A stretch of 64,000 nt of DNA from Candidatus Peregrinibacteria bacterium (GTDB lineage Bacteria; Patescibacteriota; Gracilibacteria; UBA1369): NCBI GenBank assembly GCA_003153355.1, contig PLYH01000001.1, forward strand, positions 100,565 through 164,564. The letters run 5' to 3'. Below the pieces are notes generated by a model that was not told where the DNA came from, did no database searches, and saw nothing but the letters and a program-made list of their open reading frames with translations. Of the stretch, positions 40,990 to 60,951 are shown one piece after another (position 1 is the stretch's first letter; each line of letters opens with the position of its first letter). The position numbers and the translations under genes are program-made.

Positions 40990-41126
40990 GGTTTGGTAAG
41001 TTAGAGGGCAATTTATACCATAATTTACGCAAAAACGTCAAGGAGCAGCCCTCAATCTCATTTTAGTTCCCTCAAAATGCTGTTAACTTTGGGGCAGAGA
41101 TCTAAAGATATGTAGAACAAGCCATA

Positions 41127-41154
41127 TTTACTTTTCTTGATTTTATGCTACAGT
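41127..41154 (+). promoter_or_regulatory. Probable sigma-70 promoter of the Cys/His protein-SIR2 operon
   Basis: -35 TTTACT at 41,127-41,132, 16-bp spacer, and an extended -10 (TGC then TACAGT at 41,149-41,154), 43 bp before the ATG of the first gene. The divergent helicase gene starts at 40,989. Confidence 0.45.
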
Positions 41155-41197
41155 AAGCTCCTTTTTAAATTTATCGATTCTGAATCCTCCCAAACAT

Positions 41198-42124
41198 ATG
41201 GCTGAAAACGAGCACAACTATAATAAGTTCAACAATTATCTCAACAGCATCCCCTTAGAAGAGCTTCATGCTAAGAATCAAAAAGATCTTGATAAGGCTC
41301 AAAAAAATTTTCAAGAACTTAAGAAAGCGCTTGCTCAAGGGAAATGCAGTTTTTGCGGCAATGAGCTTTCTTATTTTTCAGAAAAGAAACCTTGCTTTCA
41401 TTGGCTTTTAAAACCAAATGGCTTTAAGAAAAGACATTTTCCACTTTTATATACGCAGGAAAATTTTCATCAGCTTGAGGCTTATCTTCGTTGGGTAGCC
41501 AATTGTGAGGCTCCGATGGTCAATATAAATGATCTGGTGGAAGAAAAATCTTCCTCAAAAATTATCGAAGAAACGATATGCTACAAAAATCTTGAATGGT
41601 CATTCTCGTGTACAGAAAACTGCATGCGCGGAGACAGTCACAAAAGTAAAGATGGAGAGAAAATACCACATTACCATTTTCAAATGAGAGTCGATGGAAA
41701 TGTGATTATTAATTATAACGGATTTCATGTTCCATTTCACGACTATGACCATTTCTGTTTTGCTGTAAAAAGAGGAGAATTTGATCGACTGAGAGGTCAC
41801 CATGTTGAGGGTGCAGGTATGCAAGCACTGCTCGACAATTTTACTCCTGAGGAATTGATTGATCACATGCAAAAACCACCAGACGATGCTGGACGTAAGC
41901 AACAATTTCACCTGGGAACTTTAGTCGTCGCTGACGAAGGAACAACCATGTCTGGAGATGATATTGCTGACATTATTGAGGAGCACAATAGGACAGGTGT
42001 TCCAATGGCAAAACTTATAAGAAAACTCAAAAATGTGAACGTTGAAACTATCATTTCTCCAGGCCCCGACGTCCCTAAGATTGCTGCTAGAAAACCAAAC
42101 AGGGGAAAACCTCCTAAATCATAG
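41198..42124 (+). CDS. Unknown Cys/His-rich protein upstream of SIR2
   Basis: A 308-aa soluble protein I do not recognise. Residues 1-48 are helical and charged. A possible zinc site follows (C50, C53, C66, H68, with H80 nearby). A second metal-like cluster includes C138, C142, H148, H158, H160, H177, H181 and H185 in a beta-rich region (HYHFQMRVDG, FHVPFHDYDHF). The tail has DEGTTMSGDDIADIIEEHNR and ends basic. The neighbouring SIR2 gene begins 70 bp downstream on the same strand, so the two may form a toxin/sensor pair. This is inference; no sensor function is proven. Confidence 0.65.
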   Translation: MAENEHNYNKFNNYLNSIPLEELHAKNQKDLDKAQKNFQELKKALAQGKCSFCGNELSYFSEKKPCFHWLLKPNGFKKRHFPLLYTQENFHQLEAYLRWVANCEAPMVNINDLVEEKSSSKIIEETICYKNLEWSFSCTENCMRGDSHKSKDGEKIPHYHFQMRVDGNVIINYNGFHVPFHDYDHFCFAVKRGEFDRLRGHHVEGAGMQALLDNFTPEELIDHMQKPPDDAGRKQQFHLGTLVVADEGTTMSGDDIADIIEEHNRTGVPMAKLIRKLKNVNVETIISPGPDVPKIAARKPNRGKPPKS

Positions 42125-42194
42125 TAGACTGCTCTTATTTTAGAAAATTTAGTAAAAGAAACTAAAAAAATTCCTATATCTTTTATAAAATATT

Positions 42195-43223
42195 ATGGAA
42201 TATTCAAAAAATATCTTGCTTACAGGTGCTGGTTACACTGCCAATTTTGGTGGATTTGTGGCTAGCGACATGTATGAAAAGATTTTTAATAATTCAAGGA
42301 TAAATTCTTTATCAGACACAGCTGGCGGAATTATCCGTAACTCTGACGATCTTGATTATGAAGGCATCTATTCTGAAATAGACGCATCGAGTAGTGTAAA
42401 TCCCGAAGATAAAATCCTCGCGAGAGAGTTAGTCGTTGATGCTTACAAAGCTTTAGATAAAGAATTAAAACGAGGTCCTACGAAAGCAAATGGAACATAT
42501 AGTAAATTCGGACGTACCTTGATCCAACGAATTATAGGAAGGGGCACACAGAAAGGGTTTTTCTTTACAACAAATCAAGATCTATTACAAGAAAGCCGTA
42601 GTGGGATGAAAGCCTATGGAATACCTATCTCAGATGCAGAGAAGTTAAACAAAAAACAGATTTTGGAAAGAAAGGATTTCATACAATTGCCCAATTTGAA
42701 AGATATTGAAAAACTTAAAGCTCGCATTCAGGGAACTGAAAGACATGTTGGGGATTATCGTGATTTGAATGATTTAAATTATATAAAATTGCATGGTTCA
42801 TATGGATGGTTATCTGCTGACGGTTCTGATGGAATGATTTTTGGAAAAAATAAACCTAGAGATTTGGAAAAAGAACCCCTACTAGCTTTCTACTTACGGC
42901 TATTTAGAGAGGTATTATGCAAAGACGGAGCAACATTAATAGTTATAGGTTATAGTTTTAGAGACAAGCATATTAATGATGTTATTTTGGAGGCAGTAAA
43001 AAATCATGATTTACATTTGGTTATAGTTGGTAATATCCAGAAAATCAAAAATCAATTATGTTATTCACAAGATGATGCTGGAGTAAAAAAAGAATTGGAG
43101 ACCAAGGCAATATGGGACGCTAGAGTTGGGCAATTTGATAAAAAATTAATCGATATTTTTGATGATACAAATGATACAAATTTGAATACTTCCGCTGAAG
43201 ATTTATTAAAAAAACTGTCTTAA
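42195..43223 (+). CDS. SIR2-domain protein, probable defence NADase
   Basis: A 342-aa protein of the SIR2_2 type found in antiphage systems. Motifs: LLTGAGYTANFGG (NAD-binding GAG at 11-13), FFTTNQDLL (T-T-N-x-D at 125-129), KLHGSYGW (candidate catalytic His200), and GYSFRDKHIND (252-262). It has no zinc-finger cysteines of protein deacetylase sirtuins. In related systems such proteins deplete NAD+ on infection. It appears intact. Confidence 0.85.
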   Translation: MEYSKNILLTGAGYTANFGGFVASDMYEKIFNNSRINSLSDTAGGIIRNSDDLDYEGIYSEIDASSSVNPEDKILARELVVDAYKALDKELKRGPTKANGTYSKFGRTLIQRIIGRGTQKGFFFTTNQDLLQESRSGMKAYGIPISDAEKLNKKQILERKDFIQLPNLKDIEKLKARIQGTERHVGDYRDLNDLNYIKLHGSYGWLSADGSDGMIFGKNKPRDLEKEPLLAFYLRLFREVLCKDGATLIVIGYSFRDKHINDVILEAVKNHDLHLVIVGNIQKIKNQLCYSQDDAGVKKELETKAIWDARVGQFDKKLIDIFDDTNDTNLNTSAEDLLKKLS

Positions 43224-43482
43224 AGAAGGATTTTACGCCCATACCGATCAAGAATAAACTGTGGCCGCTAGCGTTACTGTCTGGCTTATCAACGACTTCG
43301 TTTAGCTTTTTCATATTCGTGGGTAAAATTCCTTCAAAAACCCCGCAACGTTCTAAAACATTATAAACATCCTCCCAAAAACCATCAGGAGTTTTTTTAG
43401 CATAATGACAGGTAATGTGAAGAATGTGACCTCGATTTGATCTGAACGTAACAGATTTTTTTGTCTCTTTGATTTTTTTCAT
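43120..43482 (-). pseudogene. Likely broken small gene whose end runs into the SIR2 gene
   Basis: The open frame of 120 aa starts at an ATG at 43,482 (MKKIKETKKSVTFRSNRGHI). Its first ~85 residues look like a small alpha/beta protein (HITCHYAKKTPDGFWEDVYN). The last third lies antisense to the SIR2 3' end and reads as non-protein-like sequence. The simplest reading is a truncated gene that now ends by chance within its neighbour. No family recognised. Confidence 0.45.
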
Positions 43483-43504
43483 AGGTAAAAATTAAAAAAT
43501 AGGC

Positions 43505-43650
43505 TTAGTTTTTAGCGCTATTATCTTTTTCATCTGGAGCGGGTGCTTTCTTTTCGATATGATTAACTTTCATTATGGACTTTGCTCCTTTGGGAATCTC
43601 GAAACTTAGTTCAGGAAAAGACTTAATTGTTTCCTTTTCTTTCAGGGTTT
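43505..43650 (-). pseudogene. Remnant of a small gene
   Basis: An open stretch on the minus strand encodes QTLKEKETIKSFPELSFEI and continues to PAPDEKDNSAKN before a TAA at 43,505-43,507. It has no good start codon except an internal ATG at 43,573. Its 5' end merges, in a different frame, with the 3' end of the DUF2779 fragment, so a deletion or frameshift probably joined two genes here. Confidence 0.35.
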
Positions 43651-43899
43651 GAGGGTGGCCTGATAAATAATTGAAGTACCATTTTTCAGGAGCTTCGTGG
43701 TTTCTTCAAAAGCATTTTCCCAAGGGACTTCGATCCCTTTCGGAAAAAGGCCGTGAGCAAGGTCTTCCACCTGTCCGCCTTGGATTGCAATCCGGCTCTG
43801 AGTTTGATCAAGAAGGTCTTTCCTGTTTTTACAAAGCCATCCGTAGCGGGGACATTCCAGGAATCGAAGGAAATCGGTTTTGCTTATGGTGTGATTCAC
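43642..43899 (-). pseudogene. N-terminal fragment of a DUF2779-type nuclease-like protein
   Basis: The 85 aa read ISKTDFLRFLECPRYGWLC, then a Leu-rich part, QGGQVEDLAHGLFPKGIEVP, and TSIIYQATLKP. This matches the start of DUF2779 proteins, which are normally several hundred residues long with a PD-(D/E)XK-like nuclease part. Here the protein stops before the nuclease core. The fragment is 3 bp after AIPR on the same strand, so it was probably a second gene of that operon, now lost. Confidence 0.65.
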
Positions 43900-43902
43900 A
43901 CG

Positions 43903-45660
43903 CTAATCTAAATTGATTTTTTCGATTTGTTTTATAAATAAAGCAATGTTTTTATTAAACATTTTCTTTTTCGCTGAATTTTGTTTTGACCAAAATTTAT
44001 TAAATTCTATCTCTAAGTTCGGTTGTCTGAAAAAACTTGAAATATCTGTAATTTTCCCGTTTTTTTCTTTATTTATTCGGTAAAATTTCATGGCTGCTAC
44101 ATATCCTTTTTCACTAATTTGGAAAAGATGTTTGATAATGTTTTTATACTTTGGCTGTTTATGTCTTTCAGCAGCATAAATAAAATTTTTCTGAATGATA
44201 TTATTTTTAAAATATACTTCTAAATTTCCCCACATAAAATTTAATATTAACCAATGTGCGTAATATCTTCTTGTATCTTTTTGCGTTAAAGAAGCGATAA
44301 GTTTGTCCATCCAATGAAACACCAAATATTCCTTTATCGGTCTTTGATTAAATATTTTTTTGTAAATTTCATCTGCGAACAGTTTATTTTTACCTTCTCT
44401 AACGATAAATGGATCTAATATACAAGCTCCGATTATTTTCGCTAATCTATCTTTTCTTACTTTCCACTGATATTTATTTATATTAATCTCGGCTATTTCT
44501 TCAGAACTGGAACGTTTTCTTAAATAGAGATAACTTAATTTTCTCAATTCCTTCTCAATTCGTATTTGTTCTATGTCGTTTGATTTTAAATCTGCAGCAG
44601 TTATTTGATTTTGGTAATTGGTAGCTTTAACTATCTGTCTAACCATTTTATCTAATTGAGTATCTTCAGGTTTATTAGGTATTTCTATGATTCTTATAAG
44701 TACTTTTGCGTTATTTTTTCTATGCTTACCTAGTACTCGTGTTGTTTGTTGTCCATTGATTATTTGTGCATTTGATAAACTTATATATGTTTCTCCTTTA
44801 GAGCTTTCGAGTTTAACTTTATTTCCTATAATAGTTATTCCATTATTGTAGTACCAAAATAAATGCGGTTCTTTTTCTAATGTTTTTTCGATGCTTTTAT
44901 TTATTTCGTTGTTACCAAGAAAACCACGAATATTTCTTGCAAATAGCCTTCTCCCAATTTCGTTGTATATGTTTCCAATATCTGTGCCATTCATAGTAAA
45001 TATCCAAGACGTGTTTCCTGTTTTTTCATCATGTTTTTCTATATGTTGTTCATTATCAATAGGGAGTTTTATAGTAGGTGGGGGTGGGGCGATACCATCA
45101 ATATACTGTTGGCAAAGCAATAAAATATCCTCACCATTAAATATGTCATAGTTTGCAGTTTCCCAATCTTCGATCATTGTTTCTGCTTGTTCAGTTATTG
45201 ATTTACTAACTTTACCCGTGGTTATGAACTGTAAATGAAGATTATAGTTTCGATTTTGAATTATATTTCTGGCTTCTTCTAGTTTTATTCTTGTTATGTT
45301 CTCAGCTGTTGATGTTATTTGCTTAAAAAGTCCATCTTCTTCTAAAAGTAATGATCTACCTATGTTCGCGAGCGCGGTTACATCATTACTTTTTTCACTT
45401 TTTTTGTTTATTGAATGATTGTATTTGCCTTGTATAACGAATACTATTTTTGTTTTATGGTCTATATATATTGCATCAATGCCTTTATCATTGGAACCGC
45501 CAGTTAATGATTCAATAGCTTTGTTTTCATCATCGCTTATATAAGCTTTAATAAACCAGGTCAAAAAAGCATTATCTGGAGATAACGTGGGATTTCTATC
45601 GTTGATTTCTAAAATTTCCTTTTGGAGCTCTTTATAAAGTTTATTTTCGTTTTCCGTCAT
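43903..45660 (-). CDS. AIPR-family (abortive infection) protein
   Basis: A 585-aa protein with the AIPR pattern in the middle (LFARNIRGFLGNNEINKSIE, FWYYNNGITIIGNK, NAQIINGQQTTRVL). The N-terminus has GGSNDKGIDAIYID followed by VFVIQGKYN, which fits a restriction-endonuclease-like D-x(n)-Q-x-K active site. AIPR proteins are linked to phage abortive infection. The C-terminal part is mostly helical and unassigned. It appears full length. Divergent from the type IIG gene across a 151-bp gap. Confidence 0.85.
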   Translation of the reverse strand: MTENENKLYKELQKEILEINDRNPTLSPDNAFLTWFIKAYISDDENKAIESLTGGSNDKGIDAIYIDHKTKIVFVIQGKYNHSINKKSEKSNDVTALANIGRSLLLEEDGLFKQITSTAENITRIKLEEARNIIQNRNYNLHLQFITTGKVSKSITEQAETMIEDWETANYDIFNGEDILLLCQQYIDGIAPPPPTIKLPIDNEQHIEKHDEKTGNTSWIFTMNGTDIGNIYNEIGRRLFARNIRGFLGNNEINKSIEKTLEKEPHLFWYYNNGITIIGNKVKLESSKGETYISLSNAQIINGQQTTRVLGKHRKNNAKVLIRIIEIPNKPEDTQLDKMVRQIVKATNYQNQITAADLKSNDIEQIRIEKELRKLSYLYLRKRSSSEEIAEININKYQWKVRKDRLAKIIGACILDPFIVREGKNKLFADEIYKKIFNQRPIKEYLVFHWMDKLIASLTQKDTRRYYAHWLILNFMWGNLEVYFKNNIIQKNFIYAAERHKQPKYKNIIKHLFQISEKGYVAAMKFYRINKEKNGKITDISSFFRQPNLEIEFNKFWSKQNSAKKKMFNKNIALFIKQIEKINLD

Positions 45661-45779
45661 AAGATATTTTTAATTATCATGTTATATTACCACAATTTAA
45701 CTGTTTTGGCAACGCGGTGATTTATACTAACAAGAATTGTATTCACGCACTCCATTTGTCTTTATTTAAAGCCGATTTT

Positions 45780-45795
45780 CTGGTATACTAACCAG
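45780..45795. promoter_or_regulatory. Palindrome over the -10 box of the type IIG gene
   Basis: CTGGTATACTAACCAG: the arms CTGGT and ACCAG flank a TATACT -10 box (45,784-45,789), preceded by the TGG of an extended -10. It lies 16 bp before the ATG at 45,812. Overlap of an inverted repeat and the promoter suggests repressor control, as often seen for restriction enzymes. Confidence 0.45.
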
Positions 45796-45811
45796 ATATT
45801 TTGAAATCAAA

Positions 45812-48800
45812 ATGTTAGACAAAAAAACAAAACAAAAAATCGAAAAAATCGTTAAAGATTTCTTAGATGATGGTGCAAGTGTAAGAGGTGAGGAGAATAT
45901 CCAAACTCATTATACGATTCCTCTTCTAAAGGCTTTAGGATGGAGCTCTTCTAGTATTAGAGTAAATGAAGCTCAGTTAGTGCAGACGGGGAAATTTCCT
46001 GATGTGCTTCTGTTGAACCAATCTGGTGCAACTTTATTTGTTATTGAATCCAAGGCTACATCTCTAAGTGATGGTTTGGATGGGGCTTACACAAAAGCCG
46101 GACAAAAATTATCTTTTGTGGATCAGTTGTGTGGCTATTGCAATGCTGAAGGCGTCTATTGGGGCGCTTTAACTAATTTTGTTGAATGGAGGGTTTATGC
46201 TGCCTATCCAAAGTGCATCTACGGTAAGAAAATGAATATTTGTGATTTGGATAAAGGTATTTCTACTCTTACTGACGACGTGTGGGATTTTTTTGAACTT
46301 TTATCATCAAGTTTTCTTCAACAGAAAAATGGAAAAATCAGTAGTGAACAAGTTTATTACCCGCCTAAGGAAGTAATTCGAAAGGATTTTTTCGAAAAGC
46401 TCAAGGAATGGAGGAAGCAGCTCAGAGATTATTTGATGAAGAAAACAAATATTCAGGATGTTTTTGAAGCGAATTTTGAAACACAGAAAGTATTGGATCG
46501 ACTCATTTTTATGAAGGTTTGTTTTGATTGGAGTATATTACCGCAGAATTTTTTATCAGCAATTCTTTACTCAAAAAAAAGAGCGAAATACGAAGAATTG
46601 AAGGATAAATTTAAACTACTCAATGAAAAATTTGATTCAAGTCTCTTTCTGCACGATGTATGCGATGAAACCACTGTCAGTGATGAGATCGTTGAAAATA
46701 TTGTGAGGGGGTTAAATGGGATTGATTTTTCAGAGTTAAGCGTACATGTGATCGGTGAAGTTTATGAAGATTATTTAGGAGAGCTTCTGAAATCCGAGAG
46801 CAGTACAGCATCTGAAAATGCGCAGAAAAAAAGCCAAGGAATCTACTATACTCCGGAGTATATCGTGGATTTCATCATAAAAAGCACGGTTGGAGAACTG
46901 CTTTCGAAAGTGAGTTCTATCGATGAATTAAGAAAAGTTCGTGTGCTCGATCCTGCTTGTGGCAGCGGAAGCTTCTTGATCCGTGCATTTGATGAATTTT
47001 ATAATAAATACAATGAGCTCTATAAAAATGTACACAATAGACCTTCAGATTTTGAAATTAAAAAAGAGATCCTCTTGAATAATTTGTATGGAGTAGATCT
47101 TGATGAGAGAGCACTTCAGATTGCTCAATTAAATCTTTTGCTTAAGGCGCTAAAAAATACAAAAGAAATTTCAGGAAGAAAGCTGCTTCCAGATCTTAGC
47201 CTCAATATTCGTTGTGGAAATTCGTTGATCTTTGGTGATACACAGAATTTAAATAAAAAATTTGCAAATGAACTCAAAGAATTACGAAATCTTAAAAAAG
47301 GATTTAAAAATGAAATAGAAGATAGGAGCAAAGCCTATTATTGGAAGAAAATTGCGAATCTTGAAGCTAAAATTGAGAAGGATGTGAATAGTTCTTTAGG
47401 AGAAGAATCGGATGAACTTAAAAAAAAGAAACCTTTTAATTATGAATTAAAATTCTGTGAAGTATTTGAAGATGGTGGTTTTGATCTAGTAGTAGGCAAT
47501 CCACCATATGTTCAGCTCCAGAAACTTGCAAGAACACAGATGCAAAAGGATTTAGCATCTCAAAATTTCAAAACTTTTACACTAAATGGTGACCTGTATT
47601 GTCTTTTTTATGAGCGTGGCATTCAGTTACTGAAAGAGAAAGGGCTGCTTTCTTACATTACAAGTAACAAATGGATACGTTCAGGTTATGGTGAGAAACT
47701 ACGTGCCTACTTTTTAGAGCATACCAATCCACGTAAACTTCTTGATTTTGGTGGGTTTAAAATATTTGATGGCGCCACAGTTGATACTAATATTTTGATA
47801 ACACAAAAGTCCGTAAATGTTCACGAGCTTTGGGCAGTACATTTCAAGAATGATTATAAAATAGGTGATGATTTGGGAAATTATGTAGCCAAAAATGGCA
47901 CCATATTTGCGCATTTTAATAGTTCACCGTGGTTTATTGGCAGTCCTGCTGAGATTGCTCTTAAGAAGAAGATAGAGAAAATGGGTAAACCTCTGAAGGA
48001 TTGGGATATGTTGATGCACAGAGGCGTGACCACCGGATGTAATGAAGCATTTATCATTGATGAAAAAATGAGAAATGAACTAATAAAAAAAGACCCAGGA
48101 AGCGTGGATATTATTAAACCAGTTTTGAGAGGAAGAGATATAAATCGATATGGATATGAGTGGAATGGTTTGTATTTGATTACAACGTTTCCAAGTTTAC
48201 ATATCAACATCAATAGTTACCCAGCGGTGAGGGAATATTTGAAATCATTTGGGAAAAAACTCGAACAGACTGGGGAAAAAGGATGCCGAAAAAAAACTGA
48301 CCACAAATGGTTTGAAATACAAGATAATATTGCTTACTGGAAGGAGTTTGAAGAAGAGAAAGTCGTATGGCTGGAGCTGGTTGATGATGGGAGATTTTGT
48401 GTTGTTCCCGCAGGATATTATATAAATAATAGCAGTTACATGATGGTTACGCAGCGCAATAAGTACTTCTGTGCCGTTCTTAATTCTCGCCTTATAAATA
48501 TGTATTTTGATAATATTTGTGCTGAATCAGGAGCGGGGACAAACCGATGGATACAACAATATACAGAGCTTCTTCCAATTCCTATGCTATATACTCCGGT
48601 ACGTAAAATCATTGCGGATAAGATCGAATTCCTAGTTGATCAAATCATTAAAACTGGATCGGAAACCAAAAATTTAGAAAACCAAATAGATGAATTGGTA
48701 TATGAACTTTATGGTCTTTCTCAGAAGGAAATTGAAATTGTAGAAGGTAAAAAAGATGCTGAATCCGAATATCTTAAATTCATGACAGAATTTAAGAAAC

Positions 48801-48991
48801 TTGATTCACAAAAAGCAAAAATAAAATTCATCAAATCTAAGTCCGATGAGGAACTAGACTTGATTTTTGAAGGTTTAGACAAATACCGAAATAGTCACAC
48901 CCTTTCTAAAGCGGAACAAGATCTCTTAAGTGAATTTAATACTTCCATTAAATTAAGACCACCTTCACTACAAGATAAGCACTCAGCGTAG
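45812..48991 (+). CDS. Type IIG restriction-modification enzyme (fused nuclease-methyltransferase)
   Basis: A 1,059-aa single-chain enzyme. The N-terminal nuclease has a PD-(D/E)XK core (D64, E79, K81 in FPDVLLLNQ...FVIESKA). The adenine methyltransferase has motif I D380-PACGSGSFLIRAF, then GVDLDERALQIAQLNLL, and motif IV N563-PPY. The C-terminal ~450 residues contain TaqI/Eco57I-like recognition sequence (WIQQYTELLPIPM). No separate specificity gene is seen. It would modify and cut DNA by itself. Present uninterrupted, so presumably active. Confidence 0.92.
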   Translation: MLDKKTKQKIEKIVKDFLDDGASVRGEENIQTHYTIPLLKALGWSSSSIRVNEAQLVQTGKFPDVLLLNQSGATLFVIESKATSLSDGLDGAYTKAGQKLSFVDQLCGYCNAEGVYWGALTNFVEWRVYAAYPKCIYGKKMNICDLDKGISTLTDDVWDFFELLSSSFLQQKNGKISSEQVYYPPKEVIRKDFFEKLKEWRKQLRDYLMKKTNIQDVFEANFETQKVLDRLIFMKVCFDWSILPQNFLSAILYSKKRAKYEELKDKFKLLNEKFDSSLFLHDVCDETTVSDEIVENIVRGLNGIDFSELSVHVIGEVYEDYLGELLKSESSTASENAQKKSQGIYYTPEYIVDFIIKSTVGELLSKVSSIDELRKVRVLDPACGSGSFLIRAFDEFYNKYNELYKNVHNRPSDFEIKKEILLNNLYGVDLDERALQIAQLNLLLKALKNTKEISGRKLLPDLSLNIRCGNSLIFGDTQNLNKKFANELKELRNLKKGFKNEIEDRSKAYYWKKIANLEAKIEKDVNSSLGEESDELKKKKPFNYELKFCEVFEDGGFDLVVGNPPYVQLQKLARTQMQKDLASQNFKTFTLNGDLYCLFYERGIQLLKEKGLLSYITSNKWIRSGYGEKLRAYFLEHTNPRKLLDFGGFKIFDGATVDTNILITQKSVNVHELWAVHFKNDYKIGDDLGNYVAKNGTIFAHFNSSPWFIGSPAEIALKKKIEKMGKPLKDWDMLMHRGVTTGCNEAFIIDEKMRNELIKKDPGSVDIIKPVLRGRDINRYGYEWNGLYLITTFPSLHININSYPAVREYLKSFGKKLEQTGEKGCRKKTDHKWFEIQDNIAYWKEFEEEKVVWLELVDDGRFCVVPAGYYINNSSYMMVTQRNKYFCAVLNSRLINMYFDNICAESGAGTNRWIQQYTELLPIPMLYTPVRKIIADKIEFLVDQIIKTGSETKNLENQIDELVYELYGLSQKEIEIVEGKKDAESEYLKFMTEFKKLDSQKAKIKFIKSKSDEELDLIFEGLDKYRNSHTLSKAEQDLLSEFNTSIKLRPPSLQDKHSA

Positions 48992-49164
48992 TTTCTGTTA
49001 ATGTTTATTCGAAAAATTCGAGGCATTTTGCAGAATGGACAATCTCCTCGATAGTTTAGATCACCTCTGTCGTTCAGTTTTAGAAATTGAGCCACTAGTT
49101 TCCAAAGTTCTATTTCTTGTTGTCTGGTGATTTGCATTGGGGGCCTTTGATGGGTACTCAACAT
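48895..49164 (-). CDS. Small primase-type (CHC2) zinc-finger protein or remnant
   Basis: An 89-aa frame with YRGDCPFCKMPRIFRINI followed by YAECLSCSEGGLNLMEVL, matching the DnaG/CHC2 zinc-finger layout (CPFC...CLSC, then GG-x-x-x-x-x-x). No primase or helicase follows, so it is either a stand-alone finger or what is left of a phage/plasmid primase. About 97 bp overlap the 3' end of the type IIG gene on the opposite strand, which argues for caution. The last ~30 residues may not be natural. Confidence 0.5.
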   Translation of the reverse strand: MLSTHQRPPMQITRQQEIELWKLVAQFLKLNDRGDLNYRGDCPFCKMPRIFRININRNYAECLSCSEGGLNLMEVLNSLKRSCSALERV

Positions 49165-49328
49165 AATTTAACTATAAATTAGCGTCAAATATTATAAGAA
49201 TGACATCGGGGTATGTTTGTTGTGTAACAGAATATCGGATGGCGTGGAAGAGTAAATTCATATTATAAAGCCTAGACTTAGCCAACCGTTGCGGCATGTA
49301 TGTTGGTACACCTTAACCAATATATCGT

Positions 49329-50651
49329 ATGCCAAAGGCACTTTTAGAGAGGATTCAGGGAGATATGACCATTTCACGGTCTTTGCCAACCTTGACTGCA
49401 AGCGCCAGATATTGCCTGTATGCTCGTAAAAGCTCAGAATCGGACGAAAAACAGACAATGAGCATCGATGCTCAGCTCAAAGAAATGTTGGCAATCGCCG
49501 AAAGGGATCATTTGAATGTGGTGGAGATAAAGCAAGAAAGTAAGAGCGCAAAGGCGACAGGGGTAAGAACAGAGTATAACCAGCTAATAAATGAAATCGC
49601 GGAAGGAAAGATCAATGCAATCTTGACCTGGGCACCAGACCGCCTAAGTCGCAACGCCGGGGATCTGGGTTCTTTGGTGGATCTTATGGATCAGGGTAAA
49701 CTTCTACAAATCAGAACACATGGGCAGAATTTTACCAACAATCCCAATGAAAAATTCTTGCTCATGATCCTTTGTAGTCAGGCCAAACTCGAAAACGATA
49801 ACAGAGGAAAAAATGTAAAACGGGGCCTAAAATTTATGTGTGAAATGGGAAAAAGGCCGGGGTTACCTCCGCTGGGATATAAACTGTACCGAGACCCTAT
49901 CGATCTTTCGAAAAAAAGCCAAATCGTGATTGATCCCGAAAGAGCACCATTCGTTAAAAAGATGTTTGAATATGTTATCGACGGGTGCAGCGGAAGGCAG
50001 GTGAACGAATACCTTCAGGATGAGGGCTTAAGAACAAGAAAAGGAAAAAGGGTTCCGTTGAGCATGATGTACCGGATATTTAAAGACCAGTTCTACTATG
50101 GAGAATTTGAATATCCCGAAGGCAGCGGAAATTGGTACAAAGGCACCTACGAGCCGATCATCACGAAAGAACAATGGCAACAAGCCAATAATCAACTAAA
50201 AACCTATGCAAAATCCAAATGGGGCAGCAAGGTCTTCTACTACAGCAAACTCTTCAAATGTGGGACGTGCGGATCAGGTGTCTGCGGGGAAGAAAGAACA
50301 AACCGGTATGGCTCAAAATATATTTACTATAAATGCACCAAATATGGCGGCAAAAAGCGCTGCAATGAGAAATATATTCGGGAAGAGAAGCTCATCGAAT
50401 CGATTGCCAGAATGATTGAGGAGAATAAGGAGAAAGACACCTTGGTCAGCAAAAAAATCGACAGAGAGGTAAGCAAAATCAATCAGATCCAAAAGCTCAC
50501 GGTTGGACCTAACGCGAAAGAGATCAGCGACATCGATTACATCCAGTACATCCTCAACGGAGGAACGAATTTTGAAAGGAAGCAGTTTCTGGAGTGCATT
50601 GAAGGACAGTTATATTTACAGAGAGGTGAGGTCTTACTGAAACGAAATTAA
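49329..50651 (+). CDS. Large serine recombinase (resolvase/integrase family)
   Basis: A 440-aa recombinase that joins and excises DNA at att sites. The catalytic domain has YARKSSESDEKQTMSID (likely catalytic Ser35), then LTWAPDRLSRNAGDL. The recombinase domain has GYKLYRDP, and a zinc ribbon of CGTCGSGVCGEE...YYKCTKYGG...C is followed by a helical tail. The start may be 49,329 or the ATG at 49,365. It is the likely mover of the island. It lies about 0.9 kb from the right repeat. Confidence 0.92.
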   Translation: MPKALLERIQGDMTISRSLPTLTASARYCLYARKSSESDEKQTMSIDAQLKEMLAIAERDHLNVVEIKQESKSAKATGVRTEYNQLINEIAEGKINAILTWAPDRLSRNAGDLGSLVDLMDQGKLLQIRTHGQNFTNNPNEKFLLMILCSQAKLENDNRGKNVKRGLKFMCEMGKRPGLPPLGYKLYRDPIDLSKKSQIVIDPERAPFVKKMFEYVIDGCSGRQVNEYLQDEGLRTRKGKRVPLSMMYRIFKDQFYYGEFEYPEGSGNWYKGTYEPIITKEQWQQANNQLKTYAKSKWGSKVFYYSKLFKCGTCGSGVCGEERTNRYGSKYIYYKCTKYGGKKRCNEKYIREEKLIESIARMIEENKEKDTLVSKKIDREVSKINQIQKLTVGPNAKEISDIDYIQYILNGGTNFERKQFLECIEGQLYLQRGEVLLKRN

Positions 50652-50708
50652 CATACTCGTCAATCAAGTCTATACTTGATACCATAAGGATTATTAATAA
50701 AAGTGACT

Positions 50709-51527
50709 ATGGCTTCAAGCGTAATTAAAGATGTGGATAATCTAACAAGGGACAATATCGATCAAGCCGTTGAATTACTCTACCGGCTCCTATTTTGGAC
50801 ACATGAAAAACAAACAGAAAGAGAAGGGAAATTTAAAACTGATGACGTAAGAGGATCAACTTTTGGAAAATTTACCAAACGCTTGTCGCATGGTTACATC
50901 AACTTCAAAAGAATAGAATTTTACTTTAATGATTCTGACCAACTTGCGGATGAATTTAAAATTAGCAAAAACGATGATCATTCATTGAACCAAATTGTAA
51001 TTGGATATTTTATTTGTAGTCGTTTTGACTTATTCATAGGTATATTTTCACTTTTTGAGGATGCTTTAAAAATCATCTGTAAAGCAATATTACCACCCGA
51101 AGAGTATGAATCATTATTTTTCAATGTTGCTAAAATTTTAGAAAACCAAGATATCGCTAAACTGATAAAAGATAATTATCCAAAACAATTTGATGAAATT
51201 AAAAATAAAGATAAATTGATACCTTTAATCAGAATAATCAATAAATTTATTGCATTAAAAATAATGACAAAAGATGAAGGAAACTTTTGTGAATTCTATG
51301 CGTGCATTAGGAATACAATACACAACAATGGGTTTTACTTCGGGAAACCTAGAGATTTCACTATTCTAGGCAAGAAATATAAGTTTGAAGATGGTAAGCC
51401 CATATTATACTCATTGTTAGACGAGATAGCCTTCATTAAGGAAATTCTAAGAATTTTTGAGGAATTCACATTACGCATTAACCACGACCACATAAAAGAC
51501 AATGCTTATGTTGCTGGAGGGCAATAA
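50709..51527 (+). CDS. Hypothetical helical protein beside the recombinase
   Basis: A 272-aa all-helical soluble protein, AT-rich, from the ATG at 50,709 (a GTG at 50,703 is the alternative). Near residue 195 it has YACIRNTIHNNG, an R-N-x-x-H-N motif reminiscent of HEPN RNases, though the R-to-H spacing (three residues) is one shorter than the canonical Rx4-6H. I recognise no family. It is the last gene before the right end of the island, 57 bp after the recombinase. Confidence 0.6.
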   Translation: MASSVIKDVDNLTRDNIDQAVELLYRLLFWTHEKQTEREGKFKTDDVRGSTFGKFTKRLSHGYINFKRIEFYFNDSDQLADEFKISKNDDHSLNQIVIGYFICSRFDLFIGIFSLFEDALKIICKAILPPEEYESLFFNVAKILENQDIAKLIKDNYPKQFDEIKNKDKLIPLIRIINKFIALKIMTKDEGNFCEFYACIRNTIHNNGFYFGKPRDFTILGKKYKFEDGKPILYSLLDEIAFIKEILRIFEEFTLRINHDHIKDNAYVAGGQ

Positions 51528-53809: not shown

Positions 53810-55057
53810 ATGAATACTTACGCATTTATCCTGGGCCGGAAACAGCTACTCTCCATTGCGGAACTCTGCAGCATGCTCGGACCGAAGGCCAAAATCATTG
53901 ATATCGTTCCTGAAGCGCTCATCGCCGAACTTCCTGAACCTCTTGCTCATCCGCAAGAGAGCTTGGACCGTCTGGGCGGAACCATCAGCATTGCCGAAAT
54001 TTTTCACCAGTCAAAAAAAGAAAAGTCTGCCATCGTCCCGGCAGTCGGTGAATTTCTGACAACAAAGTTTCAGGGCAGACCGAACAAGCTCAATTACGGA
54101 GTAAGTATCTCCAGTTTTACAGAAAGACATGAAGAAATTTTAAAAAAAACCTTAATTTCTCTGAAAAAAGACCTCGTCGAAGCCGGACTCAAATCAAGAT
54201 TCATCAATAAAAATTTCAAAAACGTTGAGACCGCAGCCATCCACGGTGAAAAACTCCTCAAGGACGGAGCACACATCACGATCATCCAGGGCAACCACCA
54301 CTATTTTTACGGCAACACCGTTGCTTTGCAGAATCTTGAAAAATATACCCAGCGCGATTACGAACGGCCGGGCCGCGACCCGCACCTTGGCATGCTTCCG
54401 CCAAAACTCGCCCAGATGATGATCAACATGGCCGGTAAAACACCGCCCGAAGAAAAAATTCCCGAACACACACTTCTCTATGATCCGTTCACCGGCATCG
54501 GCACCGTGCTGACTGAAGGTTTGCTTCTGGGCTTTGACGTTCTTGGATCTGACCTCAACCAGATTGCTTTGGATAAAGCGAAAAAAAACATCGACTGGAC
54601 CACGCAAAAATACAATCTCCTCCGCCCCCAGCCCAGGCTCTTTCTTAAGGACGCCACCCATCTGACCAAAAAAGACCTGCCCGAATCCCCTGCCCTCATT
54701 GTCACTGAATCTTATCTCGGGCCGCCGGTCAGCCAATTTCCGCTTCCGGAAAATATGAGAAAAACTTTCGGAAACATTCGCGAAACTTTATTCAGATTTT
54801 TCCAGTCGATCAGGCCGCTAATCAAAAAAGGGACGCCGATCGTCATCAGCTTTCTCGCATACAAACGCAAAGACCGATTTTTCTTCGTAGAAAATCTCAT
54901 TGAAGACGTCATCAACCTCGGATTCCGCGCTGAACCTCTGATCCCCCACGAAATCAGCAAAAAATACGGACTCAAAGTCTACCAGCGCCTCGGCCTGATT
55001 TACGACCGTCCGGACCAGATTGTCTGCCGTGAAATCTGGAAATTCACCGTACTCTAA
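53810..55057 (+). CDS. TRM11-like SAM-dependent RNA methyltransferase
   Basis: A 415-aa protein. The N-terminal ~180 residues resemble the THUMP-like part of TRM11-type tRNA methyltransferases. The Rossmann domain has LYDPFTGIGTVLTEGLLLG followed by GSDLNQIALDKAKKNI. Motif IV, normally D/N-PPY, reads VTESYLGPPVSQF, a variant in which the usual D/N-P-P-Y is replaced. Its substrate is therefore uncertain. Ends 15 bp before the SemiSWEET gene. Confidence 0.75.
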   Translation: MNTYAFILGRKQLLSIAELCSMLGPKAKIIDIVPEALIAELPEPLAHPQESLDRLGGTISIAEIFHQSKKEKSAIVPAVGEFLTTKFQGRPNKLNYGVSISSFTERHEEILKKTLISLKKDLVEAGLKSRFINKNFKNVETAAIHGEKLLKDGAHITIIQGNHHYFYGNTVALQNLEKYTQRDYERPGRDPHLGMLPPKLAQMMINMAGKTPPEEKIPEHTLLYDPFTGIGTVLTEGLLLGFDVLGSDLNQIALDKAKKNIDWTTQKYNLLRPQPRLFLKDATHLTKKDLPESPALIVTESYLGPPVSQFPLPENMRKTFGNIRETLFRFFQSIRPLIKKGTPIVISFLAYKRKDRFFFVENLIEDVINLGFRAEPLIPHEISKKYGLKVYQRLGLIYDRPDQIVCREIWKFTVL

Positions 55058-55445: not shown

Positions 55446-55520
55446 TCCCCTGTAGCTCAGTGGTAGAGCAACCGGCTGTTAACCGGTAGGTCACTGGTTC
55501 GAGCCCAGTCGGGGGAGCCA
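55446..55520 (+). tRNA. tRNA-Asn (anticodon GTT)
   Basis: Acceptor TCCCCTG with CGGGGGA, D arm AGCTCAGTGGTAGAGC, anticodon stem ACCGG/CCGGT with loop CTGTTAA (anticodon GTT), T loop TTCGAGC, discriminator G, encoded CCA. A T-run follows at once. Degenerate copies of its 3' end occur at 56.2, 56.9 and 58.2 kb. Confidence 0.96.
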
Positions 55521-55540
55521 TTTTTTTAATTGCTTATTTA
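55496..55540 (+). repeat. tRNA-Asn 3' end and downstream flank, founding repeat copy
   Basis: The T arm, acceptor, CCA and following T-run plus GCTTATTTA are the parent of three later copies. Shared blocks are CCAGTC, GGGAGCCAT, TTTTTTTAA and GCTTA. Confidence 0.65.
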
Positions 55541-55615
55541 AAACCTTTAAGTAAGATTGACTAAACTTTAAAATAATTGATAAGCTCAAACACTAATTTT
55601 TGCTAAAAATACTAT

Positions 55616-56131
55616 ATGGAAATACAACCAATATATGTTGACTACAATAGCGATTGTAATGACGCACAAACTGAACACGAGATTAATTTAGAAATGGGTG
55701 TAAAAGTCATTGGGTTTATGGATGCCAACGGAAACGCCGATGAATTTATTGCACAAAAAGAGTTAATTAGAAGTAAAATTTTCGCTATTCTAACGGAGAA
55801 AATCGTACCTGAAATGATCAATGACATCATCAAAGACCTTCATGAAAATATTCAACCTCCTAATAATCCATTGGGGATACGTTCCACAATCGTTCCAGGT
55901 GTGGGAGGCGAAATCTACAAAGATGAAAATGTATGGTCTACCAGACAAAAAATAAATTTAGGCGCACGTCTCACAACAGAACAACCGATAAATACAGTGA
56001 GCGCGCTAAAAGGAAATCAGGATGTTCTGGCACGATATACTGCTGATATGATTGTTTGGCTTATAGAAAGAGAATTTACTGGTGAAACCTCGCATTCATC
56101 TGAAAGACCAACGCTAAAAATTGTCCGATAA
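55616..56131 (+). CDS. Hypothetical protein (cassette 1)
   Basis: A 171-aa soluble acidic protein, AT-rich, with no signal or membrane segment. It has mixed alpha/beta content with the stretch LEMGVKVIGFMDANGNADEF and a C-terminal GETSHSSERPTLKIVR. Family not recognised. It is the only gene between tRNA-Asn and the second tRNA-end copy. Confidence 0.55.
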   Translation: MEIQPIYVDYNSDCNDAQTEHEINLEMGVKVIGFMDANGNADEFIAQKELIRSKIFAILTEKIVPEMINDIIKDLHENIQPPNNPLGIRSTIVPGVGGEIYKDENVWSTRQKINLGARLTTEQPINTVSALKGNQDVLARYTADMIVWLIEREFTGETSHSSERPTLKIVR

Positions 56132-56157
56132 TCAAATCATTAAACTCCGTAAAATAA

Positions 56158-56209
56158 GTTCGAATATTCTCCAGTCACGGGAGCCATCGAGTTTTTATGG
56201 CTTATTTAT
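56158..56209 (+). repeat. Degenerate tRNA-Asn 3' end, copy 2
   Basis: GTTCGA, then CCAGTC-AC-GGGAGCCAT (15 of 17 match the tRNA), a T-run and GGCTTATTTA. A T-run follows CCA much as in the original. Confidence 0.7.
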
Positions 56210-56253
56210 TGAATAAAACTATCTAATCACCTTAATAAGGGTATACTTACCTT

Positions 56254-56466
56254 ATGAAAAACGAAAATAAAGAAAGCACCGATTCCCGCAAGAATGGAAA
56301 TCGTGACTATTACGGCAGAATATATCCTGGTATTACGCTTATCATCGTAGGTAGCATTTTTCTCTTAAATAATTTCGGATACCTGCAAGGAGAAGCCTGG
56401 GGAAAGCTCTGGCCCCTCTTCATAATAATTCCTGGCTTATTTATGGTTTTCAGATCTAGACGCTGA
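56254..56466 (+). CDS. LiaF-type membrane segment protein (cassette 2)
   Basis: A 70-aa protein with a charged N-terminus, then two membrane helices. The pattern YPGITLIIVGSIFLLNNFG followed by WPLFIIIPGLFMVF matches the LiaI/LiaF-like (DUF5668) membrane domain used in cell-envelope stress systems. No regulatory partner is nearby. Confidence 0.75.
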   Translation: MKNENKESTDSRKNGNRDYYGRIYPGITLIIVGSIFLLNNFGYLQGEAWGKLWPLFIIIPGLFMVFRSRR

Positions 56467-56513
56467 TAGCAGGGACACAAACCCCGCTCGACACTAAATA
56501 ACCATCATAAAAT

Positions 56514-56873
56514 ATGAATATCATCGTCATCATTCTTCAAATTCTTTTAGGCTTATGGAATATCGTTGGTGGTATTTATATGACCACGCACTATCAAGAT
56601 CTCATCAGTGCATGGGCTAGTGGTTTTTTCCCTTCCTTTTTCTGGATCATCTTTGGCGTTATTCAGATTTTATTCTCACTCGCGTTAATATTGTCTGTAG
56701 GAAAGGGTAAGTTAAGAAAAATGTCCCCCATTGCGGCAATTGGTTTGGGCATTATAGATCTATTAGGAATTGCATTTTACGCAGCTTACGCTGGATTCCC
56801 AGGTATACTTTGGGGAATAATTCCTGCATTGTTGCTGGCATTCGTTGCTTATTGGAGAAGATCAAAACAATAA
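56514..56873 (+). CDS. Small membrane protein (cassette 2)
   Basis: A 119-aa protein with four hydrophobic segments (residues ~2-22, 40-63, 72-92, 94-113) and a basic loop (GKGKLRKMSP). No family recognised. It ends immediately before the third tRNA-end copy. Confidence 0.55.
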   Translation: MNIIVIILQILLGLWNIVGGIYMTTHYQDLISAWASGFFPSFFWIIFGVIQILFSLALILSVGKGKLRKMSPIAAIGLGIIDLLGIAFYAAYAGFPGILWGIIPALLLAFVAYWRRSKQ

Positions 56874-56876
56874 ACA

Positions 56877-56915
56877 GTTCTCATCGCCTCCAACCTGCTG
56901 AGCCATTTTTTTAAA
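56877..56915 (+). repeat. Degenerate tRNA-Asn 3' end, copy 3
   Basis: GAGCCATTTTTTTAA at 56,900-56,914 is identical to 55,515-55,529 across 15 bases. Upstream of it the GTTC and CTCC elements are only loosely kept. It begins 4 bp after the stop codon of the preceding gene. Confidence 0.65.
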
Positions 56916-56927
56916 GAGCAAAAAAAT

Positions 56928-57482
56928 ATGACAACAATCAATTTTAAAACTCAACTGGTTACAATCGGCTCATGGACCATTCTCCTGCTGCCGAAAAGCG
57001 AAAGCGCCAAACTTCCATCACGAGGTTTGGTATTGGTTGAAGGAACCATCAACGGTTTTCATTTTCAAGCTCCTGCCGAGCCGGACGGTAAAGGAAGCCA
57101 CTGGGTCAAGGTGGAAAAAACCATGCTCAAAGGCGCTAAAACTGACGTTGGCGACATGGTGACGCTGGCAATTGAGCCATCGAAAGAGTGGCCGGAACCC
57201 GAGGTGCCGGTTGATCTGAAAAAAGCACTCGCGGGCGACTCACTTGCACAAGAACTATGGTTAGATGTCACGACAAAAGCGCGCTGGGACTGGATACGAT
57301 GGATACGGTCAACCAAAAATCCGGAAACTCGTAAAATACGGATCGAGAAAACATTCTCCAAGCTTAAATCCGGAACACGATCACCATGTTGTTTTAACCG
57401 CAGCGCATGCACCGAACCCTCTGTATCGCATAATGGGGTGCTCCTCGATCCAACGCAAACGAAGGGGAAAAAGCGGATGTAA
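56928..57482 (+). CDS. DUF1905 / YdeI-OmpD-associated protein (cassette 3)
   Basis: A 184-aa protein. The N-terminal half is a beta domain (FKTQLVTIGSWTILLLPK, GFHFQAPAEPDGKGSHWVKV) of DUF1905 type. The C-terminal half has RWIRSTKNPETRKIRIEKTF and SGTRSPCCFNRSACTEP, typical of the YdeI/OmpD-associated family. Its cellular role is not settled. It begins 13 bp after the tRNA-end copy. Confidence 0.85.
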   Translation: MTTINFKTQLVTIGSWTILLLPKSESAKLPSRGLVLVEGTINGFHFQAPAEPDGKGSHWVKVEKTMLKGAKTDVGDMVTLAIEPSKEWPEPEVPVDLKKALAGDSLAQELWLDVTTKARWDWIRWIRSTKNPETRKIRIEKTFSKLKSGTRSPCCFNRSACTEPSVSHNGVLLDPTQTKGKKRM

Positions 57483-57550
57483 AGTTGGCGGAAATGCTAA
57501 CTTTTTGCAGAAATGAAACAGCGACGCCCCCATAATAAACCTTGAAAATT

Positions 57551-58141
57551 TCAAGATTTATTTCCTACCATCTTAGCCAAAGAAAAAGAGACCGTAAAAG
57601 TTATAAACAAAATCAAAAGAAGTATGAAATCATAAGGTTTGAGCATCGGGATAACATTCCCAATATTGATGATGAGTAAAATAAAATCAGCAATTGCTAA
57701 GATCATAAAAAAATTTGCGAAAAATTTGATATTGAATTTTTTGAACTTTTCCAAAATATAAAAAATACAAAACAGGACTACGAGAATTACGCCGATAACT
57801 GCAAAAAAACCAGAAATGCCTTGAATAAAATTAACAAATTGATCTTGTGGAATAATACCGAATAATCCAGTTTTTCCGTTCGTAGAAAGAACAAAAATGA
57901 CCAAAAAAGTTATAAATGCTGCTCCTTCTAGAAAACTCTTAAAAATATTATAAACAAATTCATTTTTAATATAGTTCTTCAAATCCTTCGCGAAATAGGT
58001 AAAAAGTACAACAAGCCAAGCAATCAACGGCTGCTGCAAAAAATAGTTGGAAAAGAAGCCCACAAAAACTATACCAAGTGAAAAAACAAAAATTGACAAT
58101 ATTTGCGTTATTAAATCAGATTGTATGGATTTAATTTTCAT
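57551..58141 (-). CDS. AT-rich polytopic membrane protein (cassette 3)
   Basis: A 196-aa protein with about six hydrophobic segments and short basic loops (FTYFAKDLKNYIKNEF; EKFKKFNIKFF). No family recognised. It is minus-strand, unlike its cassette neighbour, and very AT-rich. Confidence 0.6.
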   Translation of the reverse strand: MKIKSIQSDLITQILSIFVFSLGIVFVGFFSNYFLQQPLIAWLVVLFTYFAKDLKNYIKNEFVYNIFKSFLEGAAFITFLVIFVLSTNGKTGLFGIIPQDQFVNFIQGISGFFAVIGVILVVLFCIFYILEKFKKFNIKFFANFFMILAIADFILLIINIGNVIPMLKPYDFILLLILFITFTVSFSLAKMVGNKS

Positions 58142-58235
58142 ATTGATAAAAATTATTTATAGTGGATACCGATGCAATAATAGCAAAATAAGTCAAAAAT
58201 AAACATTTATTGAAAATTGCCCCTGCTGCCAAAAC

Positions 58236-58280
58236 GTTCGGACTCCGTCCAGTCTGGAGAACCATTTTTTTAATGGCTTA
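58236..58280 (+). repeat. Degenerate tRNA-Asn 3' end, copy 4
   Basis: GTTCGG, then CCAGTC-TGGAGAACCATTTTTTTAAT: 23 of 26 bases match the tRNA and its flank from CCAGTC on, followed by GGCTTA. It lies just before the alpha/beta hydrolase gene. Confidence 0.75.
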
Positions 58281-60159: not shown

Positions 60160-60951
60160 ATGATTATCCTGCTTCACTCATCGAAAACCATGAGCATCTC
60201 GCCCCACGGGAATGTTCAGCTGCGACAGCCGCAACTGCTGGAAAAAAGCCTGAACCTTGATACGTATCTTAAAACACTCTCCGAGGCACAACTGGGAAAA
60301 ATCATGAAACTTTCGTCGGCGCTCGCAAAAAAAACGCACGCCCTCATTGCATCCTGGACCGCAGAACCAAAAAGCCAATCATTAGCTTTAGATAGCTTTA
60401 TTGGCGATATTTATAGCGGCCTGCGCGCGCCCAGTTTTTCCGCTGCCGATCGAGACTATGCCGATGAAACCCTGCGGATTTTATCGGGACTGTATGGAAT
60501 CATTCGTCCGTATGACGGAATCTGCGCGTATCGTTTGGAGATGGGCTATAAATTTCCGGATCCTAAGTTTACCAATTTATACGAGTTTTGGGGCAAATCC
60601 ATTGCTGAGTGTCTTCCAAAACAAGGCCCGGTTATAAATCTTGCTTCCGACGAATTTGCTGACGTTGTCACCCCTTTTATCGATAAATCCCGCATTATTG
60701 CGCCAAAATTTTTAACGGTCAGTCCTAAAACCGGAGAACCTGCGTTTGTTGTTATTCACGCCAAAATTGCCAGAGGGGCCTTCGCCCACTGGCTTATCAC
60801 CAGCCGCACGAAGGACGCAGCGGACCTCAATCAATTTCATGAACTTGGCTATCGCTACGATCAAAAATTAAGCACTTCAAACATACCGGTTTTTGTATGT
60901 AAGAACTTCGGCGGCAAAGGCCTGAGTATGAAAACCCGGAAGAGTTTTTAA
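60160..60951 (+). CDS. yaaA: YaaA-family peroxide-stress protein
   Basis: A 263-aa protein of the YaaA/DUF328 family, which in E. coli limits iron and oxidative damage. Features: LLHSSKTMS near the start; IGDIYSGLRAPSFSAADRDY; RILSGLYGIIRPYDGICAYR; and INLASDEFADVV. The length is normal. Confidence 0.92.
   Translation: MIILLHSSKTMSISPHGNVQLRQPQLLEKSLNLDTYLKTLSEAQLGKIMKLSSALAKKTHALIASWTAEPKSQSLALDSFIGDIYSGLRAPSFSAADRDYADETLRILSGLYGIIRPYDGICAYRLEMGYKFPDPKFTNLYEFWGKSIAECLPKQGPVINLASDEFADVVTPFIDKSRIIAPKFLTVSPKTGEPAFVVIHAKIARGAFAHWLITSRTKDAADLNQFHELGYRYDQKLSTSNIPVFVCKNFGGKGLSMKTRKSF

Follow-up and report, generated by a model that had tools for sequence, protein, structure and literature searches.

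The segment 55446-58264 of the window (by which we mean the whole 64-kb stretch of DNA analyzed here) probably represents a composite island that grew as cassettes were inserted one after another, site-specifically, at the 3' end of a tRNA-Asn gene, with a large serine recombinase (LSR) acting in trans, as judged from comparison of sequences. The window belongs to a genome of 1.46 Mb that is 99% complete in 7 contigs (G000). A family of related sites, a 5-bp shift between these sites and the tRNA, arrays devoid of recombinase genes and LSR islands bearing the same site at tRNA-Asn are all directly visible in the genomes compared. The first-pass annotation of this DNA had proposed the serial insertion of minimal cassettes at the tRNA by an enzyme supplied from elsewhere, and this part of the proposal stands; the tyrosine recombinase that it expected as the enzyme is not supported. 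Insertion at tRNA-Asn by an enzyme encoded elsewhere is sustained by the arrays in related and distant genomes, by recombinase-bearing islands that share the site and by two relatives that carry no such site at this position.

The tRNA-Asn Locus and Its Displaced 3' Ends

Downstream of tRNA-Asn, the 64-kb window contains three copies of the tRNA-Asn 3' end, all lying on the strand of the tRNA:

55446..55520, + strand: tRNA-Asn (gtt), identified by ARAGORN; GTTC 20 nt before the CCA end; proposed attB
56156..56186, + strand: copy 2, site AAGTTCGAATATTCTCCAGTCACGGGAGCCA; matrix score 36.0; GTTC 25 nt before the end
56875..56905, + strand: copy 3, site CAGTTCTCATCGCCTCCAACCTGCTGAGCCA; matrix score 13.8; the most degenerate; GTTC 25 nt before the end
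58234..58264, + strand: copy 4, site ACGTTCGGACTCCGTCCAGTCTGGAGAACCA; matrix score 29.5; outermost in the array; GTTC 25 nt before the end

A tRNA followed by a displaced fragment of its 3' end is a trait of tRNA islands, and it is present at this locus, where the tRNA-Asn gene is the conserved neighbour of a methylase gene in relatives, with YaaA further on. The matches quoted in the first-pass annotation are reproduced, namely CCAGTCNNGGGAGCCAT at 56171 with zero mismatches for copy 2, GAGCCATTTTTTTAA for copy 3 and 88% over 33 nt for copy 4. The actual site, of 31 bp, extends beyond the stretch marked there, for it includes a left arm with the consensus GTTCGNA. This left arm is common to all three copies in the form GTTC-N9-CCA, whereas its counterpart in the tRNA is GTTC-N4-CCA; the offset of GTTC to the CCA end is thus 25 nt in the copies versus 20 nt in the tRNA, a difference hereafter called the +5 offset.

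Measured against a random-sequence control, which had been suggested together with the repeats, simple patterns occur more often than expected by chance, with 4 matches versus 0.8 and 7 versus 2.25. As a stronger control we trained a matrix of 30 columns solely on sites of other genomes (40 distinct ones), the maximum of which was -1.3 elsewhere in the window (both strands) and 8.1 in 10 shuffles. The copies score well above these controls, confirming the claimed repetition of the tRNA-Asn 3' end, with copy 3 the weakest of the three by matrix score. It could be argued that the copies are unrelated sequences resembling a tRNA end plus a T run, by chance or by likeness to terminators, and part of the copy 3 match is indeed a T run that is also present after the tRNA. 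This explanation is very improbable, since the matrix trained on outside sites lies far above its controls, refuting chance for copies 2 and 4, and since the sites recur across genomes.

The training sites came from a search of public contigs with a pattern in which the spacing of the left arm was fixed; constant spacing among those matches is imposed by the pattern and does not constitute independent evidence, so that evidence on spacing is taken only from copies that were located by matching the tRNA end. Copies located by that match alone have the +5 left arm in the window, G003, G009 and G097, and one G010 copy has GTTA in place of GTTC.

Cassette Genes and Chromosomal Flanks

The intervals between the copies contain five plausible ORFs of at least 70 aa, none of which is recombinase-like, in agreement with the earlier statement that they carry no integrase. 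These genes and the chromosomal flanks are as follows:

53810..55057, + strand: methylase-like gene, left chromosomal flank; homologues precede tRNA-Asn in many relatives
55616..56131, + strand: cassette 1, 171-aa orphan without Pfam, PADLOC or PHROG match
56254..56466, + strand: cassette 2, gene a, 70-aa LiaI-LiaF-like membrane protein (PF18917, 43.2 bits)
56514..56873, + strand: cassette 2, gene b, 119-aa weakly DoxX-like membrane protein (PF13564, 20.9 bits, below cut-off)
56928..57482, + strand: interval 3, gene a, 184-aa OmdA/YdeI-type protein (PF13376, PF08922)
57551..58141, - strand: interval 3, gene b, 196-aa hydrophobic protein without Pfam match; weak PHROG 28734
60160..60951, + strand: YaaA, right chromosomal anchor (PF03883); downstream of tRNA-Asn in G007, G009 and G011

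When the cassette proteins of the window were sought among the compared loci, only the OmdA-type protein recurred, in G009, where the product of the gene directly after the site is 68% identical to it. Relatives of cassette 1, of the G009 LSR or of the window LSR were not found in the viral contigs searched. The search for free cassettes advocated in the first-pass annotation was run on viral contigs and did return one pattern match, but with a site of the acidobacterial type.

Arrays of the Site in Other Genomes

Arrays of the 31-bp site, each confined to one strand, also follow tRNA-Asn in further Peregrinibacteria as well as in Saccharibacteria. A pattern search recovered it in 10 of the 89 genomes of the order, with three matches per genome at most, and a matrix scan of single contigs gave up to five sites on one contig; the named site-carrying genomes of the order are mostly labelled Candidatus Peregrinibacteria, with one labelled Gracilibacteria. 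Every site found within one contig stretch shares one strand. Among public contigs, the Saccharibacteria array L111 has tRNA-Asn followed by six sites and mostly one gene per cassette, in the same direction, whereas cassette genes lie in either orientation in Peregrinibacteria. The sites of the L111 array resemble one another more than they resemble the local tRNA-Asn end.

The 30 intervals measured in these arrays are mostly 0.4-1.9 kb long; one is shorter, at 0.24 kb, and three are longer, at 2.6, 5.7 and 13.9 kb. Their cargo includes toxin-antitoxin pairs and small membrane proteins, and the Pfam matches comprise ParE above the cut-off, YafQ-like and Phd/YefM-like proteins below it, AbiEii-like proteins and a DUF2177 membrane protein. 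Several cassettes of L089, L091 and L093 correspond to whole toxin-antitoxin pairs (ParE, YafQ-like). No ORFs for LSRs or tyrosine recombinases are present inside the Peregrinibacteria arrays examined.

Two relatives belonging to one genus, G007 and G011, have no site after tRNA-Asn, and YaaA follows after 3.1 kb of shared genes. This absence, seen in a comparison of different genera, is consistent with insertion having occurred in the window and in G009.

Tyrosine versus Large Serine Recombinases

The search of G000 for a tyrosine recombinase, the enzyme class named in the first-pass annotation, yields only a 313-aa Xer-type protein (PF00589) encoded on another contig. The array enzyme is for this reason probably not a tyrosine recombinase, and both the spacing of the site and the enzymes linked to it point to LSRs. 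No tyrosine integrases were found at the array loci except for pseudogene fragments in L132 and L137. Such fragments might be taken as traces of a phage or plasmid tyrosine integrase, since lost, that carried out ordinary tRNA-island insertion, tyrosine integrases being the usual enzyme class at tRNA ends (Islander). We consider this quite unlikely, because G000 has only Xer, the arrays of the window's family contain no such integrase, and neither the +5 arm nor the occurrence of this site in LSR islands would be accounted for.

Another candidate is the host Xer system itself, which could insert cassettes in the manner of Xer-exploiting elements and pdif modules, given that the left arm GTTCGNA looks like the XerC arm of dif and that neither G000 nor the LSR-free Saccharibacteria that bear arrays have any tyrosine recombinase other than Xer. 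This we judge unlikely: the right arm of the site is a tRNA end, unlike dif, the spacing in the copies exceeds that in the tRNA by 5 bp, which would be unexpected for the core of a tyrosine recombinase, and LSR islands bear the same site. Moreover, GC skew does not flip at the site and a search with the dif pattern found nothing above control, on which grounds the reading of the site as a replication terminus or dif was also disfavoured.

The window itself encodes an LSR:

49329..50651, + strand: LSR of 440 aa, candidate in-trans enzyme (PF00239, PF07508, PF13408)

This protein is the sole PF07508 match in G000, and its gene lies 4.8 kb before tRNA-Asn, inside a defence-type island. The clade that contains this LSR is the sister group of the LSRs found at tRNA-Asn in G002, G008 and G009 (support 0.95). 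The island in question (window positions 39514-51527) is AT-rich, lies between other genes and tRNA-Gln and contains SIR2-like, AbiU-like and type IIG restriction-methylase proteins together with the LSR. We also considered tRNA-Gln as the target of the window LSR and rejected it, the search for a displaced copy having given nothing convincing.

LSRs are present in 44 of the 89 genomes of the order. As evidence against the LSR reading, no LSR is found in the assemblies of the array-bearing genomes G003, G010, G048 and G056, which are 83-96% complete, and the array-bearing Saccharibacteria G089, G102 and G107 (arrays L111/L220, L128 and L134) have one tyrosine recombinase and no PF07508 match for an LSR. 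A transient enzyme, its loss or the action of another enzyme are all possible in the LSR-free genomes.

LSR Islands at tRNA Genes

In G009, a 586-aa LSR, encoded at positions 12304-14064 of L038, lies directly downstream of tRNA-Asn, reads into the tRNA and belongs to a 9.3-kb island that ends in an array site; beyond this island come an OmdA-type gene and then YaaA. A second LSR, which is placed differently in the tree, is encoded in G085, at positions 16187-17725 of L269, within a 10.2-kb island that carries restriction genes and again ends in an array site (score 36.8). The G085 LSR sits at an intron-bearing tRNA, called Thr by ARAGORN, with the methylase gene that flanks tRNA-Asn beside it; the interrupted tRNA-Asn genes of G003, G008, G009 and G010 are likewise called Thr by this program. 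Inserts of about 200-510 nt interrupt the tRNA-Asn anticodon in the loci L037, L038, L039, L040 and likely L269, that of L040 matching a group I intron with 49.7 bits (gathering score, 50) and those of L038 and L039 containing a 114-aa ORF that looks by eye like an HNH endonuclease. The other tRNA-Asn LSRs (G002, G008, G063 and G084) have no clearly scoring site in the stretches scanned by matrix.

That islands of 9-10 kb exist which encode a recombinase and end in this site lends some credit to the idea that the arrays are remnants, in which successive complete LSR islands at tRNA-Asn were later stripped of their recombinase and most of their genes; the sites would still be LSR sites, but cassettes would not need to move in trans. 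The window copies are degenerate, copy 3 most of all, and genome reduction is typical of these bacteria, as such a history would have it. We regard it as a possible but doubtful account, for in many arrays most intervals are short (0.4-1.9 kb) and hold a single intact gene or two of them, toxin-antitoxin pairs among these, and fragments of LSRs were not found in the Peregrinibacteria arrays. Insertion of small cassettes by an LSR acting in trans is the reading that we follow below.

LSRs are often found at tRNA genes: of 64 that were examined, 37 terminate no more than 120 nt from the 3' end of a convergent tRNA. LSR genes (L184-L280) often run antisense into the 3' ends of tRNA genes for Gly, Met, His, Leu, Ala, Cys, Trp, Ser and others; where they overrun the antisense tRNA 3' end, their C-termini are therefore encoded by the tRNA. 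Among 28 LSR-tRNA pairs with 339 kb of downstream sequence, GTTC lies 25 nt before the end of the tRNA-end copy in six cases on the forward strand, of which one (L261) is a poor match, and in none on the reverse strand, these being counts with a strand control only for an offset that was examined after it had been noticed in the window. Other GTTC offsets in these pairs occur at most twice on either strand. Also against the LSR reading, the +5 GTTC is lacking in some LSR islands, the Tyr copy and one Leu copy having no GTTC, and the His and Trp copies look like +6, not +5. A symmetric motif in the right-hand half-site was sought by eye, and the matching motif was not consistent.

Biochemical work provides a precedent for the +5 offset. 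For the A118-type serine integrase, the zinc-ribbon motif of attP is 5 bp farther from the centre than that of attB, and similar attP/attB shifts apply to most other LSRs examined by the same authors (PMC3783163). If the tRNA is the attB and its copies are half-sites of the P type, the difference observed here would agree with the published shift.

Proposed Mechanism of Array Formation

The host attB would be the end of tRNA-Asn, and each circular cassette would carry an attP. Upon insertion, the P' half of the cassette would complete the tRNA and the displaced end would become an attR, composed of the P half and the B' half. New insertions at the restored tRNA would then shift older ones outward, producing a ladder of attR copies on the same strand. 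The zinc-ribbon motif of the enzyme would correspond to GTTCG(A/G) of the T-loop, which has the attB spacing in the tRNA and the attP spacing in the copies. We infer that an LSR made the window array, that cassettes moved in trans and that they were inserted in this order. As the copies in the window are degenerate, the array may now be inactive.

The tiny genomes of CPR bacteria are usually described as streamlined, and a cassette platform at a tRNA gene, if true, would be one route for them to acquire genes and reshuffle them. The 5-bp shift, familiar from biochemical work on a few phage integrases, becomes visible in genome sequence as the difference between a tRNA and its copies, and could aid the prediction of LSR sites and targets on a large scale. 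LSRs that recognize the T-loop of tRNA, if this is what they do, would be new material for genome-insertion tools. The islands of G009 and G085 supply defined pairs of enzyme and site.

Relationship to Known Systems

The nearest analogue of the array is SCC/ECC, the staphylococcal and enterococcal cassette chromosomes, with which the likeness consists of the probable use of an LSR, the 3' end of a conserved gene, att sites in direct repeat and variable cargo; tandem and recombinase-free SCC elements occur. The array differs in its tRNA target, in cassettes of about 0.4-1.9 kb as opposed to tens of kb in rlmH, in the absence of ccr genes or any recombinase and in an unrelated att sequence. SCC/ECC elements use LSRs (CcrAB) at the 3' end of rlmH, with direct-repeat att sites and very variable cargo (PMC6222049).

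Islander-type tRNA islands resemble the array in that the inserted element regenerates the tRNA while a fragment of the original 3' end is displaced, and tandem islands are known; however, they use tyrosine integrases and require one integrase gene per island. According to the Islander paper (2014), targeting of tRNA genes was not known for serine integrases, a statement that later work on serine integrases at tRNA genes might have altered. Small units of cargo are also found beside tRNA genes in tycheposons, which depend upon tyrosine recombinases, and between short recombination sites in pdif modules, which depend upon XerC/D. The array shares the first of these features with tycheposons and the second with pdif modules, but neither type of enzyme suits its +5 spacing. 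Our literature search, covering sources other than preprints and most subscription journals, found no paper describing such arrays.

With integrons the array has in common a row of small cassettes, one recombination site for each, toxin-antitoxin cargo and an enzyme that would act in trans, yet its insertion point is a tRNA and its probable enzyme comes from an unrelated family. No integron integrase was found in G000, the only PF00589 protein being of the Xer type, and the attC core GTTRRRY is not matched by the array site, which reads GTTCGNA. An attC-like fold was considered for the acidobacterial and dormibacterial sites and rejected, folding of their alignment being weak.

We tentatively suggest, as a conjecture that could well prove wrong, a serine-recombinase counterpart of the integron, in which LSRs of CPR bacteria recognizing the T-loop would build recombinase-free arrays of one or two genes per cassette, in some cases toxin-antitoxin genes, at tRNA ends with enzyme supplied by other elements, and the sites of Saccharibacteria, Acidobacteria and Dormibacterota would belong to the same system. 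Because the T-loop is nearly universal, its use as the zinc-ribbon motif would then allow LSRs to move between tRNA genes. None of the related acidobacterial and dormibacterial sites lies behind tRNA-Asn in the stretches examined. Sites of the Bryobacterales type (L096, L116, L125, L132, L139, L143, L144 and L153) have a conserved stretch upstream, in which part of the site recurs at a distance of about 118-128 bp and which includes an inverted repeat.
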